Assembly (NCBI GenBank): GCA_014376785.1
Contig: JACMQW010000039.1
Span: 1 to 61,438, forward strand
Reading direction: 5' to 3'
Length of the DNA: 61,438 bases
Source of the DNA: Oligoflexia bacterium
GTDB lineage: Bacteria > Bdellovibrionota > UBA1018
Shown here: positions 12,125 through 19,247 of the stretch, piece by piece
How the letters are laid out: each line of letters opens with the position of its first letter
How positions within the stretch are numbered: the stretch's first letter is position 1
Notes under the pieces: model-generated
Seen by the model: the letters and a program-made list of their open reading frames with translations, nothing else
Told to the model about the DNA's origin: nothing
The model's database searches: none
Translations under genes and position numbers: made by a program

Positions 12125-12931
12125 TTAGTTTCCGACGGTCGAGTGCTTCGGCTGTTTGAAATAAATTTCTCGGTGGATGGCTTCCTTCGCGACGCCTTTT
12201 TCGGTGAGGAATGCGCGAACCTCATCGATCATCTGCCCGGCCCCACACATGTAAAATTCGGTGTCCGTCCAAGGATAAGTCGTATCCAATGTGCGAAGGT
12301 AGTCGGTCACGCGTCCTTTGAATCCCGGCCAAGCACCCTTAGGCTGCGAAACGCAAGCAACCCACTCCGCCTCAAAACGGTTTCCACTCTCTCCAGAGTA
12401 AAGTTTTTTTGAGAGCTCTTGCTCGTAAAGCAACTCGTCCTCATCTCGTATTCCAAGCAAGCAGAGGATGCTTTTCGGCGGAACGTCGTGGAATTCTTTT
12501 GAGAGCATCATCGAGCGAAAAGGCGCGATTCCGGTGCCAGTCGCGATGAAACAGACATTTTTCACGGAAGAAGTTTTATACGTGAAGTCTCCGTAAGGCG
12601 CGAAACCCTTAAAGGTGTCTCCGTTTCGAAGGTTGTTCAGATAATTCGAGCCGGGGCCGCCGTCGACAACCTTGATGCAGAGTTCCACCGGCCGCACTTC
12701 TGGTGCTGATGCAATCGAATAGGCACGTCGAAGGTCTCGCCCATTCGGACCCGCGCCGGGAATGACGATGCTAATGTACTGACCGCCTTGAAAGTAAAAA
12801 GGCTCTGTCGGCGCAGGTTTAGCCGGATCCAATGAGGGAATCGGCACGGCATCGAACGAAAGTTCGAAGACGGTAGAGGTGATCGAACGATGCGACAAAA
12901 CAGTACAAAGGTAGTGGGTGACGGCTGCCAT
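12125..12931 (-). CDS. Ferredoxin/flavodoxin-NADP+ reductase-type oxidoreductase
   Basis: The 268-residue protein has the two-domain FNR fold. The FAD-binding motif is RRAYSIAS (RxYS) in the first half, and the nucleotide-binding motif is IATGTGIAPFRSM in the second, with a C-terminal MCGAGQMIDEVRAFL. No iron-sulfur cluster motif is visible, so it would need a separate electron carrier. Such enzymes shuttle electrons between NAD(P)H and ferredoxin, flavodoxin or a hydroxylase. The physiological partner cannot be deduced from neighbours. It lies 26 bases downstream of the FecR-like gene on the same strand but is not obviously part of that module. Confidence 0.85.
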   Translation of the reverse strand: MAAVTHYLCTVLSHRSITSTVFELSFDAVPIPSLDPAKPAPTEPFYFQGGQYISIVIPGAGPNGRDLRRAYSIASAPEVRPVELCIKVVDGGPGSNYLNNLRNGDTFKGFAPYGDFTYKTSSVKNVCFIATGTGIAPFRSMMLSKEFHDVPPKSILCLLGIRDEDELLYEQELSKKLYSGESGNRFEAEWVACVSQPKGAWPGFKGRVTDYLRTLDTTYPWTDTEFYMCGAGQMIDEVRAFLTEKGVAKEAIHREIYFKQPKHSTVGN

Positions 12932-12957: not shown

Positions 12958-14529
12958 CTAGGGAGTCACGGTGATCTTAAATCCTGCACCGGCTGGGCTT
13001 TTTCCGCCCCCGCCGATCGCACGCACGCGCCAATAGTAAGCAGCCGGTTTCAAATTTTTAAAGAGGAGGAAGTTATCGTCCCGCTGCACGGTCACTCGTC
13101 TTAAAATTTGGCGAAAGTCCGCATCTCCCGCGATTTCGAATTCGTAGGATTGCGTGAAGGTCGTTCGTTGCCAAGAAAAGAGAACGCCCTTTTGCCGAAC
13201 GACTTCAGGATCAGCGAGAGAAATGCTTTCTCCGTTCTTCGGCATCGTTTGGGCGGGAGAGTTAAAGGCGAAGAGAAAATTCTGATTCTTCGATACCGCG
13301 CTGTAACCGTTAGGATATTCGGCGCGAACTTGATAGGTCAGTGCCGCTGAATCAATTTTCCCCTTAGGAACGTCGTAGCTCGCTCCCTTCACCATTTCGT
13401 CGATAATGGCTAAGCCGGCCGGGTTTTTCACGACCAACCGATAGGTATCTCGCCCTTCAAGTTGTTTCCAACGGAGCTTCACACCGAAATCTTTCAGGCG
13501 CTTTCCTTGGAACTTATTCGATTCGATCGGCTCGCCACCCACGAGAGGTTTGTCGACATCGATTCCGATAAAATCCCCTTGGACAGAAAAGTTCGTCCGT
13601 AATCCACGACCGATCGGTGAGTCATCAGGGTTTTTAATTTCCACGCGGTAATTTCCCGGCTTTTCAAACGTCGCGAGTAGACCTCCGCGCCCCCTATTCG
13701 CCGTCACTTTTTTCCGGAGGAGTTCTCTTCCTTCTCCGTTCGTCAGAACCACAATCGCAGCCGTCGTCGGATTTTCGGTAGATTCGAAGATGATCGCCTG
13801 CTTTACGGGAGGAAGATTTCCCTCAGGAAGCGCGAAGACTTCGCCGGCTTTCGGTTGGGTGATTCGGACCGACCCTGCTTTCATACTTTCCGGGGTGGGG
13901 CTAGGAGCGGGCTCAGGGCTTGGCTCTGGAGAAGGCTCTGGACTGGGTTCTGGGGTCGGAACCGGCGAAGGTTCGGCAATTGGAGCGGGCGACGGAGGTG
14001 CCGCTATCGGTGACTCCACCGGCGCCGGACGAGGATTTGTCCGCGCGATGGGTTGACCGCCTCTTCGAACGACAATTTGAGGTTTGGTTTGCTCACTCTT
14101 CACATTCCCCGCCACGATATCGACCAAAACTCGGCGCTGGATTCCCGTCACTCCGCTCACATTTTCGAAAGTAAGGCGAATGAGGGAGCCCGGATCCATC
14201 TCAAGCAAACTTCCGTCTAAAAATTCAATCGTCGCGTGGTCACTCGGGCCCGTCATAACCGTGTCTTCGTTGAACAGATCGGAACTTTGTTTTGCGTCTA
14301 AGAATTCGAGAGAATCTTTCGGCTGGCGTTTTAATTGCCCCGTAACGGACTTCGTAACTCCGACCTTTTCCCCCGTTTGGGTTCCGAATTTAAAAATAAG
14401 GGATTTCAGCGAAATTCCGGAAAAATAAAGACCTACCGAACCAAGCAAGAGGATCACGAGTAGAACGACTAAGGCCGTTCGGCCGCGATGAGAACCGTCG
14501 CTCGGTGGTATGGAATTTTCTTCAGTCAT
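12958..14529 (-). CDS. FecR-domain membrane protein with Pro-rich linker and Ig/fibronectin-like C-terminal repeats
   Basis: The 523-residue protein has one membrane helix (about 18-37). A FecR-like domain follows at about 57-142, with GDxxxT-like NEDTVMTGPSDHATIEFLDGS. A Pro/Glu/Ser linker (about 160-215) contains a PEPS tetrapeptide repeat. The rest resembles two or three Ig/fibronectin-type modules, the last ending in YYWRVRAIGGGG. The bulk is predicted to be periplasmic. Its start overlaps the stop of the SpoIIE phosphatase (ATGA), so it is likely a partner in the same signalling system. FecR domains in the classical system transmit outer-membrane signals to a sigma factor; here no sigma factor is adjacent. 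Confidence 0.8.
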   Translation of the reverse strand: MTEENSIPPSDGSHRGRTALVVLLVILLLGSVGLYFSGISLKSLIFKFGTQTGEKVGVTKSVTGQLKRQPKDSLEFLDAKQSSDLFNEDTVMTGPSDHATIEFLDGSLLEMDPGSLIRLTFENVSGVTGIQRRVLVDIVAGNVKSEQTKPQIVVRRGGQPIARTNPRPAPVESPIAAPPSPAPIAEPSPVPTPEPSPEPSPEPSPEPAPSPTPESMKAGSVRITQPKAGEVFALPEGNLPPVKQAIIFESTENPTTAAIVVLTNGEGRELLRKKVTANRGRGGLLATFEKPGNYRVEIKNPDDSPIGRGLRTNFSVQGDFIGIDVDKPLVGGEPIESNKFQGKRLKDFGVKLRWKQLEGRDTYRLVVKNPAGLAIIDEMVKGASYDVPKGKIDSAALTYQVRAEYPNGYSAVSKNQNFLFAFNSPAQTMPKNGESISLADPEVVRQKGVLFSWQRTTFTQSYEFEIAGDADFRQILRRVTVQRDDNFLLFKNLKPAAYYWRVRAIGGGGKSPAGAGFKITVTP

Positions 14530-16412
14530 TTTTTCTCCAGAATCCGAATCGATGCGAGGGTGACGTCATCGTCAAGGGTTTTTTCAGTGCCGTTATAATT
14601 CATGTAAGCGATTTTCAATGCATCGATGACCGCGCGTGGGCCACCCGCTAGGCTTGACTCAACGACTTCTTTCACTCGCTTCTTGCCGTATTGCTCGCCG
14701 CCTAGATTTTTATTTTCCATCAACCCATCGGTGTAGAGAAGAAGAATATCTCCCACATCCATTGGCGCATTCATTTCCGGATAGACTCCAGATTCTTCCA
14801 CTTCTCCGACTCGGTTGCCTTTCGGCATCAGGGACTTCAACTGGAACTTATCGCCCGACTTTCGAAAGAGCCAGGGTGGGTTGTGCCCCGCATTTGCGTA
14901 CGTGATGACGTTCGTTTCTAAATCCAGTACTCCGATAAAGAAAGTCATCATGATTTTCGTCGTAGCAGCATCGAAAACGACACGATTTGTGTAAGACATC
15001 ATTTCACCCGGCGAGAGGACGTAAGTAGGGTTTTCCTGCGCCATTTTCGCAATGACCGAGAAACAACTCCTCGCGGAAGCCGTGATGAGAGCGGAAGGAA
15101 CGCCATGTCCGGTTGCATCGGCAATCATCAAACAGAGTTTGTTTTTGATTCGGAAAAATCCCCACCAGTCTCCTCCGCATTCGGAAGCGGATTGGTAACT
15201 GCCAATAATTTCGACATCATCGTCTCGGTACTCCGGTGGCGGAATCAGGCTTTCCTGAACTGCGGCCGCGACCTTGAGTTCTTCCTGCATGTGAGCCTTC
15301 TGAACCTGTTCAACGATGAGGCCTTGGATCTTTTTCGACATGATGCCGAACGAATGGGCGAGAGCTCCCACTTCGTCCTTGGTGGTGATTTTCGAGTCGA
15401 CGTTGAACTCTCCACGCGCCACCTGCGCCGTTGCAAACGTCAGGCGTTTCAGCGGTTTCGTGATGGAATTAGAGAAAACAATGGCGAAAAGAATCGCCGC
15501 CACAATCGAAATCAGACCCAGGAGGGTCAGCCTTTCACCTAATGTGAAAGCAGCCGCCATCGCTTTTCGTTTCTCAATCTGGGTCATGACGATCGGCCCG
15601 ATCGGAAGTTTGCGGTAAGCACTGAGATAGGATGTCCCGTCAATTTCGAATTCTTTCGTGCCGGTGCTGAGTTTTGCCGCAGCCGCACTTTGGAAAATCG
15701 GGTCTGAAGAAGCATCGGGATTTCTAGAGGCTCGTTCGGGATCGGTCGAGGCAAGCACTCGTCCGTCGGCTGAGGTGATAGTGGTTTGTCCGAATCGTGC
15801 ATTTCGAATGAGCGTCCTGGAATCAATGAGGGCCAGCGCAACGGGTAACCCTTTATCAAAATCTTTTAATCCGACATCTCCAAAAGCGACGAGGAGCAGG
15901 GGTGGAAGGCCCGGCCTCGAGTAATTCTCAAAGACCGCATTCGATAAGAGTAAACGTTCTCTTAACCCTTTAAAGAACGTCGAATCGAAACCGAGCTTTT
16001 CCGGATCAAGCCCGAGGTCTGCGATCGCTTTGGGATTCACATCTTTCGTCAATGGGCTGACGTCCCCACTCGGAGGGATGAGATAGGATAAGAAAACCGC
16101 CGCTTCCTCTTGGCCACGGGCGAGATTTTTCAGATTTTCCGCTTGAACGGCGTTAATCGGCAGTCGCGGGTCAAACGTCGTTAGGTAGAGCCGAAGATTA
16201 TCTCGGACCGGTCGAACTTTCTCGGTAAAATCCTGACCCGCGATGTACGCTTCCAGTGATTGCAATTGGAAGGTGTAAGCCTGCTTATCCTCGACCACGA
16301 GCTTCACGGCTGAGTAGCTCAGAAACCCGACAATGGCGAAGAAGAGCAAGCTCAGGCTCAAAACGAGTTTGGTTCCGAGTGAGAATTTGACTCGAAAGTT
16401 CTGTTGCTCCAT
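14526..16412 (-). CDS. Membrane sensor serine phosphatase: Cache-like sensor, HAMP, PP2C/SpoIIE
   Basis: The 628-residue protein has membrane helix 1 (about 14-37), a roughly 250-residue extracytoplasmic sensor region, helix 2 (about 294-315), a HAMP domain (about 315-368) and an RsbU/SpoIIE-type PP2C phosphatase (about 385-628). Metal-binding aspartates are visible in GGDWW (D415) and in ADATGHG (D432). The family dephosphorylates phospho-Ser/Thr on STAS-domain anti-anti-sigma proteins. A STAS-containing protein is encoded divergently 64 bases away, which supports this role here. The FecR-like gene is coupled downstream. The sensed signal is unknown. Confidence 0.88.
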   Translation of the reverse strand: MEQQNFRVKFSLGTKLVLSLSLLFFAIVGFLSYSAVKLVVEDKQAYTFQLQSLEAYIAGQDFTEKVRPVRDNLRLYLTTFDPRLPINAVQAENLKNLARGQEEAAVFLSYLIPPSGDVSPLTKDVNPKAIADLGLDPEKLGFDSTFFKGLRERLLLSNAVFENYSRPGLPPLLLVAFGDVGLKDFDKGLPVALALIDSRTLIRNARFGQTTITSADGRVLASTDPERASRNPDASSDPIFQSAAAAKLSTGTKEFEIDGTSYLSAYRKLPIGPIVMTQIEKRKAMAAAFTLGERLTLLGLISIVAAILFAIVFSNSITKPLKRLTFATAQVARGEFNVDSKITTKDEVGALAHSFGIMSKKIQGLIVEQVQKAHMQEELKVAAAVQESLIPPPEYRDDDVEIIGSYQSASECGGDWWGFFRIKNKLCLMIADATGHGVPSALITASARSCFSVIAKMAQENPTYVLSPGEMMSYTNRVVFDAATTKIMMTFFIGVLDLETNVITYANAGHNPPWLFRKSGDKFQLKSLMPKGNRVGEVEESGVYPEMNAPMDVGDILLLYTDGLMENKNLGGEQYGKKRVKEVVESSLAGGPRAVIDALKIAYMNYNGTEKTLDDDVTLASIRILEKK

Positions 16413-16476
16413 AATTAAAGTCTTCCCGTAATTTAAATAGATTTCAATACATTACGGCTTCTGCCGAGGTAAATTC
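16413..16476. promoter_or_regulatory. Divergent control region between phosphatase and STAS genes
   Basis: This 64-base AT-rich gap separates divergently transcribed signalling genes and must hold both promoters or one shared regulatory site. A good ribosome-binding site (GAGG) precedes the plus-strand ATG at 16477. No clear sigma-70 or sigma-54 element could be assigned. Confidence 0.35.
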
Positions 16477-16941
16477 ATGATCAAGGTCGCGAAAGAAGTT
16501 AACGGCACTACGCTCACGCTCCGACTTTCCGGTTCCATAGAAGAGACGGTGAACCTAGACGAAATGGTCGGCGCAACTCCGGCGGAGATTCGCGTCGACT
16601 GCAAAGAGATTACTCGGATCAATTCCGTGGGAGTGAAGGGCTGGATCAAATATTTCCAACTCCTTCAGTCGAAAAATACCAAGCTCACTTTTTTCCAATG
16701 TTCGACCGCCATTGTCGAACAGATCAACCTCATCTCAAATTTTACCTGCGGTGGAACGGTGGAGTCGATTTACGTTCCCTTCGCTTGCACGAACTGCAAG
16801 GCGGAACTCATCGCTCTGTTTCGAACCACTGACCTTAATGCGGATGCCATTCAGCTTCCGGAGTTGAAGTGCACGAAATGTTCGGGCAAAGCCGTTTTCG
16901 ATGACATCGAAGAAGAGTACTTTTCGTTCTTATCGCGCTAA
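16477..16941 (+). CDS. STAS-domain protein with C-terminal zinc ribbon
   Basis: The 154-residue protein has a STAS-like domain (about 1-98), in which TRINSVGVKGW places Ser50 at the position usually phosphorylated in anti-anti-sigma factors. After it come two CxxC pairs (C104/C107 and C132/C135), a probable four-cysteine zinc ribbon. A STAS domain fused to a zinc ribbon is not the usual RsbV-like architecture. The next gene overlaps by one base (TAATG) and encodes an HATPase protein, the natural kinase/antagonist of STAS proteins. The divergent gene encodes a SpoIIE-type phosphatase. The STAS assignment rests on pattern and context. Confidence 0.7.
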   Translation: MIKVAKEVNGTTLTLRLSGSIEETVNLDEMVGATPAEIRVDCKEITRINSVGVKGWIKYFQLLQSKNTKLTFFQCSTAIVEQINLISNFTCGGTVESIYVPFACTNCKAELIALFRTTDLNADAIQLPELKCTKCSGKAVFDDIEEEYFSFLSR

Positions 16942-17924
16942 TGAAGCAAATTCTTTTACTAGTATCGAACAGACCTGACGATGCCGCTTTCGCGCAGAAA
17001 ATTGCGGAGATCTGCGAACTCGAACTCGTCCGTTCCGTAGATCTCAATACAGTCGCTGCGACGATTAAAGATAAAGATGTCGGAGCAATCTTCGTCGACT
17101 TTGTGAACGCCGACGGATTCCGTTCATTTGAGTCTTCTATTCACGATCAAGTCGGACTTTTCAGCGACCGCCTGAACTCGAATCGGTTTCACTACCTTTC
17201 CGACTCCGATTTCGAAGAAAGAAAATTCCTGATCGAAAGCTCCCTCTTCGGGAATTTCATTTACCGAAAATTTTCTGACGTCGCAAAGGCGGCGAAAGCC
17301 GGAATTCGTTACGCTTACGTTGTGAAAGCCACTCTCGGAGACCGCGCGTTCGGAATCAAAAACCTCTTCCATCCGAAGTCCCAGATTCAAGTCATTCAGG
17401 TAAAAAGATCGACCCAAAAACAACAGGTCGTCGAAGCCCTGCGTGCCTACCTCATTAAAGCGAAGTACCCGACCCGAATGGCCAACACGATTGCGAATGC
17501 GGTCGATGAATTGATCATGAATTCGATCTTCGCCGCGCCGACAGATCCGCTCGGAAGACGAACCTACGAGCAGACTCCTCGCGACGCCGATATTATGCTG
17601 GAAGATAAGGCCTCCATTGAAGTCTCCATCGCCTTCGACGGCGTCCAAGTGGGCATTGCAACGACCGACCAATACGGATCGATCGATAAGCAGAAAGTCT
17701 TAAAACACCTGGCGACGCTCTATAAAGATGAGCAATACAAAATGAAGCTCAGTGTTGCCGGCGCCGGGATCGGACTGGCTACCACCTTTCGCAACGGGGG
17801 TTCATTGATTTTTCTGTGCGAGAAAAACTCGAAAACCGAAGTTTGCGTTATTTTCGAGCGGCTCGACAACATCCGCGAATTTAAAGACCAGTTCCGTTAC
17901 ATCGTAAACCAATATTACTACTAA
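16941..17924 (+). CDS. HATPase (RsbW/histidine-kinase-type) protein with receiver-like N-terminal region
   Basis: The 327-residue protein has an N-terminal alpha/beta region of about 125 residues resembling a degenerate receiver domain (IFVDF at 50-54). A C-terminal GHKL ATPase domain follows at about 175-320. The N-box is NAVDELIMNS (186-195), the G1-like element is DQYGS (243-247) and the G2-like element is GAGIGLA (274-280). No His-phosphorylation helix is seen, so it is more like an anti-sigma serine kinase than a histidine kinase. It overlaps the STAS-zinc-ribbon gene, which suggests a stoichiometric partner. The receiver assignment is weak. Confidence 0.7.
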   Translation: MKQILLLVSNRPDDAAFAQKIAEICELELVRSVDLNTVAATIKDKDVGAIFVDFVNADGFRSFESSIHDQVGLFSDRLNSNRFHYLSDSDFEERKFLIESSLFGNFIYRKFSDVAKAAKAGIRYAYVVKATLGDRAFGIKNLFHPKSQIQVIQVKRSTQKQQVVEALRAYLIKAKYPTRMANTIANAVDELIMNSIFAAPTDPLGRRTYEQTPRDADIMLEDKASIEVSIAFDGVQVGIATTDQYGSIDKQKVLKHLATLYKDEQYKMKLSVAGAGIGLATTFRNGGSLIFLCEKNSKTEVCVIFERLDNIREFKDQFRYIVNQYYY

Positions 17925-17943: not shown

Positions 17944-18555
17944 ATGGCACTTTACCTTGCTTCGACTTCTCCGCGTCGCCACCAACTCCTAAACGATTGC
18001 GGATTTCAGTTTGAAATACTAAAGCCCGGCTCGGACGAGATAGAAGCGCCCGGAGAATCGCCACGCGCAATGGTCGAACGATTTGCGACGGAGAAGGCCC
18101 TTTCTTCGCTCGATGTCCTTCCGGCCTCCGCTCGAATTGGAGTCATCATCACTGCGGATACGACGGTGGTCTCTCCCGACCGAAAAAAAATTCTGAATAA
18201 GCCCAATTCGCCCGAAGTTGCCCGAAAAATGCTCCGCACTCTCTCGGGAAAAACGCATACGGTGCTCACCGGATTTGTGATTTGCGCTTTCGACGCGGGA
18301 AAAATTACGCGGTGGCACCAAGAAGTGGTGAAGACCTCGGTTACTTTGCGCAAACTCACCCCTGCAGAAGTCGCTGCCTACGTATCCAGCGGCGAACCGC
18401 TCGACAAAGCGGGGGCGTATGCCGCTCAGGGAATCGGAATGTGCCTCATCGAAGCCATCCGAGGTTCCTATTCGAATGTGGTCGGCCTGCCGATGACCGA
18501 GCTCACCCAAGCACTTGAAAAAAAGTTCAAAGTCGTTCCAAACTGGAAGAGATGA
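17944..18555 (+). CDS. maf: Maf-family nucleoside triphosphate pyrophosphatase
   Basis: The 203-residue protein begins with YLASTSPRRHQLL, the Maf signature, and has ITADTTVVSPDRKKILNKP and KAGAYAAQGIG, which are the conserved substrate and metal elements. Maf proteins hydrolyse dTTP, UTP and modified nucleotides (housecleaning), and some are linked to septum control. Length matches the family. Its stop overlaps the start of the YggS-like gene (ATGA). Confidence 0.9.
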   Translation: MALYLASTSPRRHQLLNDCGFQFEILKPGSDEIEAPGESPRAMVERFATEKALSSLDVLPASARIGVIITADTTVVSPDRKKILNKPNSPEVARKMLRTLSGKTHTVLTGFVICAFDAGKITRWHQEVVKTSVTLRKLTPAEVAAYVSSGEPLDKAGAYAAQGIGMCLIEAIRGSYSNVVGLPMTELTQALEKKFKVVPNWKR

Positions 18556-19247
18556 TCGAACGTTACGCCTCTATTCTAAAAGAGATTCAAGAAGCCACCA
18601 CTCAGGCGGGGCGAGAACCCGGTTCTGTGAAACTCATCGCCGTGAGTAAGACCCATCCCTATTCCAGCATCAGAGAACTCTATGATGCGGGACAAAGGGA
18701 CTTCGGCGAAAACTACGTCCAAGAACTCATTGAAAAAGCGGAACAAGCCATCGCTGACGGGCTCACCGCTATCCGCTGGCATTTCATCGGACATCTGCAA
18801 ACGAATAAGGTGAAATCACTTCTCCCTTTCGTCCACACGATTCATGGGGTGGGAACGCTTCGGCTGGCTCAGGAGATTGATAAGCGTGCGGACAAAAAGC
18901 AAATCGTTCCGATCTTTATTGAAGTGAACATCGACCAAGAAGAATCGAAATCAGGGGTACGGGCCGAGGACCTTCGTACCCTTGCGGAAGCGATCAACTC
19001 ACTCGACCACCTCGCCCTGCATGGCCTCATGTGTATTCCAAATCCCGAGCGAACCGGTGGGGCACGGGCTGCGTTTCATGAAACTGCCCAATTAGAATCT
19101 GATCTTTCACCGCTCAGTTTAGGTGCTTTGTCCATGGGCATGACCTCTGACTTTAAAGACGCCATTGCAGAAGGCGCAACTTATGTGCGGGTCGGTACCG
19201 CTTTGTTCGGCGAGCGTCCGACCCATTCTGCGCCCACTTCGGACTGA
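18552..19247 (+). CDS. YggS-family pyridoxal 5'-phosphate homeostasis protein
   Basis: The 231-residue protein has the fold-type III PLP barrel hallmarks: LIAVSKTHP (the Lys binds PLP), FGENYVQEL, WHFIGHLQTNK, LMCIPNP, and the C-terminal LSMGMTSDF and VRVGTALFGER. It is a cytoplasmic protein that keeps the free PLP pool in balance and has no known catalytic activity. It is translationally coupled to maf. Confidence 0.92.
   Translation: MIERYASILKEIQEATTQAGREPGSVKLIAVSKTHPYSSIRELYDAGQRDFGENYVQELIEKAEQAIADGLTAIRWHFIGHLQTNKVKSLLPFVHTIHGVGTLRLAQEIDKRADKKQIVPIFIEVNIDQEESKSGVRAEDLRTLAEAINSLDHLALHGLMCIPNPERTGGARAAFHETAQLESDLSPLSLGALSMGMTSDFKDAIAEGATYVRVGTALFGERPTHSAPTSD

Follow-up and report, generated by a model that had tools for sequence, protein, structure and literature searches.

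Four genes at positions 12958–17924 of the window, the 61,438-nucleotide stretch of DNA analysed here (contig C2 of genome G000, 3.2 Mb), probably constitute a partner-switching module with no sigma factor at its locus. The association of the four genes is real and far beyond chance, as confirmed by the occurrence of the same genes together across the phylum Bdellovibrionota. The parts of a partner switch, first recognized in a reading of the sequence alone, were recovered by profiles, folds and invariant catalytic residues, and they are kept adjacent in other genomes. What is described below on gene content, protein folds, catalytic residues and the acceptor residue, linkage across the phylum, gene fusions and swapped outputs was all obtained by computation.

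Locus layout and the divergent intergenic region

The gene for the FecR-like protein (12958–14529, 523 aa) and that for the membrane Ser/Thr phosphatase, PP (14526–16412, 628 aa), are on the minus strand. The genes for the STAS protein (16477–16941, 154 aa) and for HATP (16941–17924, 327 aa) are on the plus strand. In the ORF coordinates, the PP stop and the FecR-like start share the sequence ATGA, the STAS stop and the HATP start share TAATG, and a gap of 64 bases (16413–16476) separates the divergent PP and STAS genes. The sequence-only reading had the four ORFs, their coordinates, the ATGA coupling, the STAS-HATPase overlap and the gap exactly right. A FAD/NAD oxidoreductase gene, identified by Pfam and synteny (12125–12931, minus strand), lies 26 bp past the FecR-like gene and is a neighbour kept in the window's family. 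On the other side, HATP is followed by Maf and YggS-like genes (17944–19247, plus strand; Maf 1.6e-55 in Pfam), for which synteny is kept within the order. No counterpart of Maf or YggS appeared in the neighbourhoods compared from other families. A profile search found no Sigma70_r2 protein on the window's contig, and hence none at the locus, which bears out the absence of a sigma factor noted previously; five Sigma70_r2 proteins are encoded elsewhere in the genome.

Alignment of 19 loci from relatives showed an element, GTTGAA-N13-TTAGTGAAAA, on the minus strand of the intergenic gap, some 6 nt upstream of the PP start codon (equivalent gaps in L125-L153). It is present across the order but has diverged in the window's genus. 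Nine exact copies were found in 23 genomes, all nine at the partner-switch locus. Since the copy at the locus was the sole exact one in each of these nine genomes, a genome-wide promoter or regulon motif was rejected. The element may serve as the promoter of PP or as a site of autoregulation, and its closeness to the start codon suggests that the PP transcript is leaderless.

The four proteins

PP contains a SpoIIE/PPM domain (14541–15143, minus strand; Pfam SpoIIE 3e-36) and a HAMP domain (15324–15476, minus strand; Pfam 1.2e-10), both above the cut-off, and hydropathy places two membrane helices at residues 16–34 and 295–313, in agreement with the HAMP-SpoIIE phosphatase proposed from the sequence. 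The periplasmic region of ~260 residues between the helices gave a weak match to dCache_1 (0.0054, Pfam). Asp415, Asp432 (in DATGHG), Asp562 (YTDG) and Asp616 (DDVT) are invariant in 21 orthologues. We take these residues to be the metal ligands known from PPM enzymes, and PP is in this respect the PPM/SpoIIE phosphatase with metal-binding Asp residues of a partner switch. It is not a SiaA equivalent, scoring 74.5 bits against the SiaA model, for which the cut-off is 700.

Taken alone, the window's STAS protein matches the STAS profile at 0.037, below the Pfam cut-off. Its identity is nevertheless upheld by matches in 30 of 44 orthologues (best 7.5e-6, Pfam), by RsbV as the top match when the family profile was compared with the PDB (E 0.0073), and by an AF2 model (pLDDT 94.8) with the SpoIIAA/RsbV fold. 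The predicted phospho-acceptor, Ser50 in RINSVG (codon 16624–16626, plus strand), aligns with the leading Ser of the MDSTG motif in RsbV, presumably the phospho-serine of RsbV. This position is Ser in all 44 order-level sequences, and an INSxG-type motif is present in all 57 phylum-level homologues (101 sequences checked), giving the STAS protein the conserved acceptor Ser, here predicted, of a partner switch. The protein also has two Cys pairs, C104/C107 and C132/C135, in a zinc-ribbon-like arrangement, and a conserved tail, FDDxxEEYFxFL. The four-Cys pattern occurs in 43 of the 57 phylum-level homologues and is gone in Bdellovibrio and a few others. Thus, the ribbon described in the sequence-only reading is present in the window but dispensable. 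Because the Ser50 motif is present in every homologue checked and the four-Cys pattern is not, the predicted phospho-switch residue is the constant part of the STAS protein and the Cys ribbon is optional. By both profile and fold, the switch protein is of the STAS type and not of the SiaC type, and no Pfam match to a SiaC-type domain was found in the window proteins.

No HATPase domain was matched by Pfam or NCBIfam in the single HATP sequence from the window, and a profile search of the PDB returned nothing convincing; the identity of HATP was therefore settled by its fold. In the AF2 model (pLDDT 90.8), a receiver-like domain (residues 1–137, about 16941–17351, plus strand; structural matches to receivers with Z ~12) precedes a GHKL/Bergerat kinase domain, assigned by structural match (residues 146–309, about 17376–17867, plus strand). 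The Bergerat domain matched SpoIIAB with a Z of 14.1 and an rmsd of 2.2 over 130 residues, and RsbW with a Z of 13; SiaB matched HATP with a Z of 11.2. The top Foldseek match, LvrC from Leptospira, covers the whole architecture of HATP, that is, a receiver followed by a SpoIIAB/RsbW-like Bergerat domain. The HATPase identity was therefore correct, but the reading as a plain HATPase had missed the N-terminal receiver-like domain. Residues D189, E190, N194, D243, G246 and A275-G276-x-G278 are invariant in 41 orthologues. Judging from the modelled fold and these residues, HATP is predicted to be a Ser kinase of the GHKL/Bergerat type with the RsbW/SpoIIAB fold. Its G1 box is degenerate (DxFGSLDK vs DxGxG), the lid region (residues 262–275) is disordered in the model (pLDDT about 44), and the N-box is partly lost in some distant homologues. 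In the receiver, the acid pair is kept, D53 is present in 36 of 41 sequences and Ser/Thr87 is mostly kept, and Arg occupies the presumed position of the conserved Lys in 39 of 41. The window's genome encodes a second HATP-like protein (G000:C79 37962-38615; L124:5657-6637), with no recognisable STAS or phosphatase gene adjoining.

The FecR-like protein is single-pass, with an N-terminal membrane helix (residues 18–36) followed by the FecR domain, a Pro/Ser-rich linker and C-terminal domains of which homologues carry several repeats (profile 416-529). The FecR domain (14080–14265, minus strand) matches Pfam at 0.017 in the window protein, below the cut-off, and is matched in 13 of 18 orthologues, at best with 7.1e-8. 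Matches to Trypan_PARP, TonB and SslE were rejected as Pro-rich low complexity only. The protein resembles the FecR of FecR-FecI cell-surface signalling in that its FecR domain lies on the far side of a single membrane helix. However, only ~17 residues precede the helix, too few for the cytoplasmic anti-sigma portion that FecR-FecI regulators carry, and there is no neighbouring ECF sigma factor gene. Of the FecR envelope sensor originally proposed, the domain is thus retained and an envelope role is plausible.

Linkage within the order and across the phylum

Profile searches of 58 relatives gave matches to the STAS protein (52 relatives), HATP (51), PP (55) and the FecR-like protein (47), with the PP and FecR-like counts taking in paralogues and low-complexity matches. 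None of the four genes was found by these searches in G018, which is 94% complete, or in the class outgroups G055 and G057; a further outgroup, G056, gave at most a marginal phosphatase match (2.8e-4). STAS and HATP are adjacent in 40 of the 46 named-collection loci, with PP divergent beside STAS in 21 of the 46. At the order level, the block consists of oxidoreductase-FecR-PP and, diverging from it, STAS-HATP-Maf-YggS. In family f5, STAS-HATP-Maf-YggS is kept and PP-FecR is found elsewhere, and close linkage is thus not essential. Linkage within the order is by itself weak evidence, since Maf and YggS are kept there too. A large paralogous expansion was observed in G004 and G027, within one genus, with about 12 and 8 STAS matches and 13 and 10 phosphatase matches, respectively. 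Several of these paralogues are in mini-clusters with FecR-like genes (e.g., L117, L118 and L119).

Searching within the phylum, we found that 192 of the 291 Bdellovibrionota genomes have a member of the STAS family. Outside the order, 57 loci with a STAS gene were compared, which are mostly the best-scoring STAS places and not fully independent, some of them sharing genomes or genera. Within four genes of STAS lay PP (50 loci), a PAS protein (48), HATP (47) and FecR (40). In the usual arrangement of the phylum, FecR diverges from PP-HATP-STAS-PAS protein-single receiver, and linkage persists through changes in gene order, orientation and flanks. In about 14 loci, PP and HATP form one chain. 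The sequence-only reading had staked itself on two points, matches of the STAS region to STAS profiles and adjacency of the genes in relatives: STAS profiles do match the orthologues, and the neighbourhood survey finds the set kept together across the phylum.

In most loci the PAS protein carries HisKA-HATPase as its output part; about eight loci have Hpt-HATPase there, and 13 have GGDEF. A PAS profile built without the GGDEF members matched all 13 PAS-GGDEF proteins (1e-7 to 1e-12), and the next best other protein scored 1e-3, although PAS domains form a large family. These matches indicate that one homologous PAS family has been joined to swapped outputs, either HisKA, Hpt-HATPase or GGDEF. 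A diguanylate cyclase in the operon, as in SiaABCD, is thus found in 13 loci of other families and not at the window's locus. No relative of the PAS output protein was matched by profile in the window's genome. Elsewhere in the order, the PAS protein lies beside paralogous STAS genes (G004:C12 and G036:C158). The PAS gene is inferred to be the ancestral state because it is widely spread, and not from a tree. At the window's locus the output gene of the operon was probably lost, and the set of four genes probably derives from a longer operon, spread across the phylum, that also encodes a PAS-linked output. The compact four-gene module of the sequence-only reading is real, and it is not a local oddity.

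In the Bdellovibrio STAS loci (L179 and L176, which we take to be from the B. bacteriovorus HD100 and Tiberius genomes), PP-STAS diverges from PAS-Hpt-HATPase and FecR, and HATP is not beside them. The f10 loci, of the GGDEF type, have no adjacent FecR. Proteins with a receiver and DUF4388 recur by the module in Bdellovibrio-like and related genomes (L176:3581-5506 and L188:8551-10491), and one of these two examples also has DnaJ and TPR parts. In L177 and L180, which are Bdellovibrio-like, a second STAS gene is followed by a FecR-like gene of 1001 aa, without a phosphatase.

Proposed mechanism, alternatives and known systems

The mechanism that we favour as a whole, and consider reasonably probable, is as follows. 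PP would read a periplasmic signal, possibly aided by the co-encoded FecR-like envelope protein, and would dephosphorylate Ser50 of the STAS protein. HATP, as an RsbW/SpoIIAB-like protein with a receiver-like domain, would bind and phosphorylate the STAS protein, and the phosphorylation state of the latter would set its choice of binding partner. Phosphorylation, switch direction, signal and target are what we infer here. In most of the phylum, the target would likely be the PAS-linked enzyme of the same operon, much as SiaC acts on SiaD (PMC7647112); the recurrence of this enzyme makes it a likelier target there than a sigma factor. In the window's order, the target would be encoded elsewhere, since the gene for the PAS-linked enzyme is absent at the locus. 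More tentatively, and with distinctly less confidence, the free STAS protein of one ancestral switch may directly gate a family of PAS-linked enzymes with interchangeable outputs (histidine kinase, Hpt-HATPase or diguanylate cyclase), fed by the phosphatase and the FecR-like protein; the window's order would have lost the operon output, and the receiver-Bergerat kinase would have become a two-component junction.

For the window's order, sigma control in trans is a real rival, if a rather unlikely one. HATP would then be a receiver-regulated anti-sigma factor and the STAS protein its antagonist, with the sigma factor among the five encoded elsewhere. The presence of those five Sigma70_r2 proteins is consistent with this, as are the closeness of the C-terminal domain of HATP to SpoIIAB and RsbW and the REC-Bergerat architecture shared with LvrC, a putative anti-sigma factor in Leptospira (PMC13269768). 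However, LvrC itself is not known to act on a particular sigma factor, and among the neighbours typed across the phylum, the recurrent one is a PAS-linked enzyme and not a sigma factor. It is very unlikely that the STAS-HATP and PP-FecR pairs are two separate functional units that lie side by side through slow rearrangement. Their separation in f5 would fit such a history, as would the conservation of Maf, YggS and the oxidoreductase gene on the flanks, but the PP-HATP fusions, the co-directional PP-HATP-STAS operons with different flanks elsewhere and the joint absence from G018 all argue for a common function. The degenerate G1 box, the disordered lid and the loss of N-box parts in some distant homologues could also mean that HATP binds nucleotide without being a STAS kinase, and is a receiver-controlled adaptor that regulates the STAS protein by binding only. 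The invariance of the Bergerat residues in the 41 orthologues and the retention of Ser50 in every homologue checked make this very unlikely.

The partner-switching module that we favour resembles several known systems. The sequence-only reading set the lack of a sigma factor against the classical modules; this lack is not in itself new, as SypA/SypE and BtrUVW (PMC8256260) and SiaABCD (PMC7647112) are earlier sigma-free partner switches. The kind is thus known, but the combination of genes and its spread across the phylum appear to be undescribed: no description of the locus was found in a search of the literature on Bdellovibrio and Bdellovibrionota that had most subscription journals outside its reach. 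The signalling locus is retained in the greater part of Bdellovibrionota, a phylum of predatory bacteria. If the mechanism is true, the locus couples a signal at the envelope to a histidine-kinase or cyclic-di-GMP output via a STAS switch, a link that is testable in Bdellovibrio bacteriovorus.

SiaABCD of Pseudomonas aeruginosa shares with these loci a HAMP-PP2C membrane phosphatase, a GHKL kinase, a switch protein that is phosphorylated (here by prediction), the lack of any adjoining sigma factor gene and, in some loci of the phylum, a diguanylate cyclase output. It differs in that SiaC is phosphorylated on threonine, whereas here a STAS protein is predicted to be modified on Ser50, the kinase carries a receiver-like domain and there is a FecR-like partner. 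The RsbU/RsbV/RsbW-SigB and SpoIIE/SpoIIAA/SpoIIAB-SigF systems of Bacillus likewise combine a PPM phosphatase, a STAS protein with an acceptor Ser and a Bergerat kinase. Their cognate sigma factor has no counterpart at the window's locus, and further differences are the receiver-like domain on the kinase, the Cys-ribbon tail of the STAS protein, the FecR-like protein and, elsewhere in the phylum, the PAS outputs. LvrC has the same two-domain architecture as HATP, but its receiver is canonical, whereas the presumed Lys position of HATP mostly holds Arg, and LvrC has been described with a histidine kinase and not with STAS and PP2C genes. In Vibrio fischeri, kinase, receiver and phosphatase parts of SypE also act on a STAS protein, SypA, whose target is not a known sigma factor. 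The window differs from SypE/SypA in its separate kinase and phosphatase genes, its FecR-like partner and the Cys ribbon of its STAS protein; the likeness to SypE extends to the PP-HATP fusions of some phylum loci. These fusions of PP to a Bergerat kinase are membrane proteins of 830–920 aa that adjoin a STAS gene and are reminiscent of SypE (L171, L185, L186, L190, L199, L200, L203, L205, L211, L214, L215, L218, L223 and L224). Together, one switch with swapped outputs and kinase-phosphatase fusions form a natural series for the study of STAS target choice.
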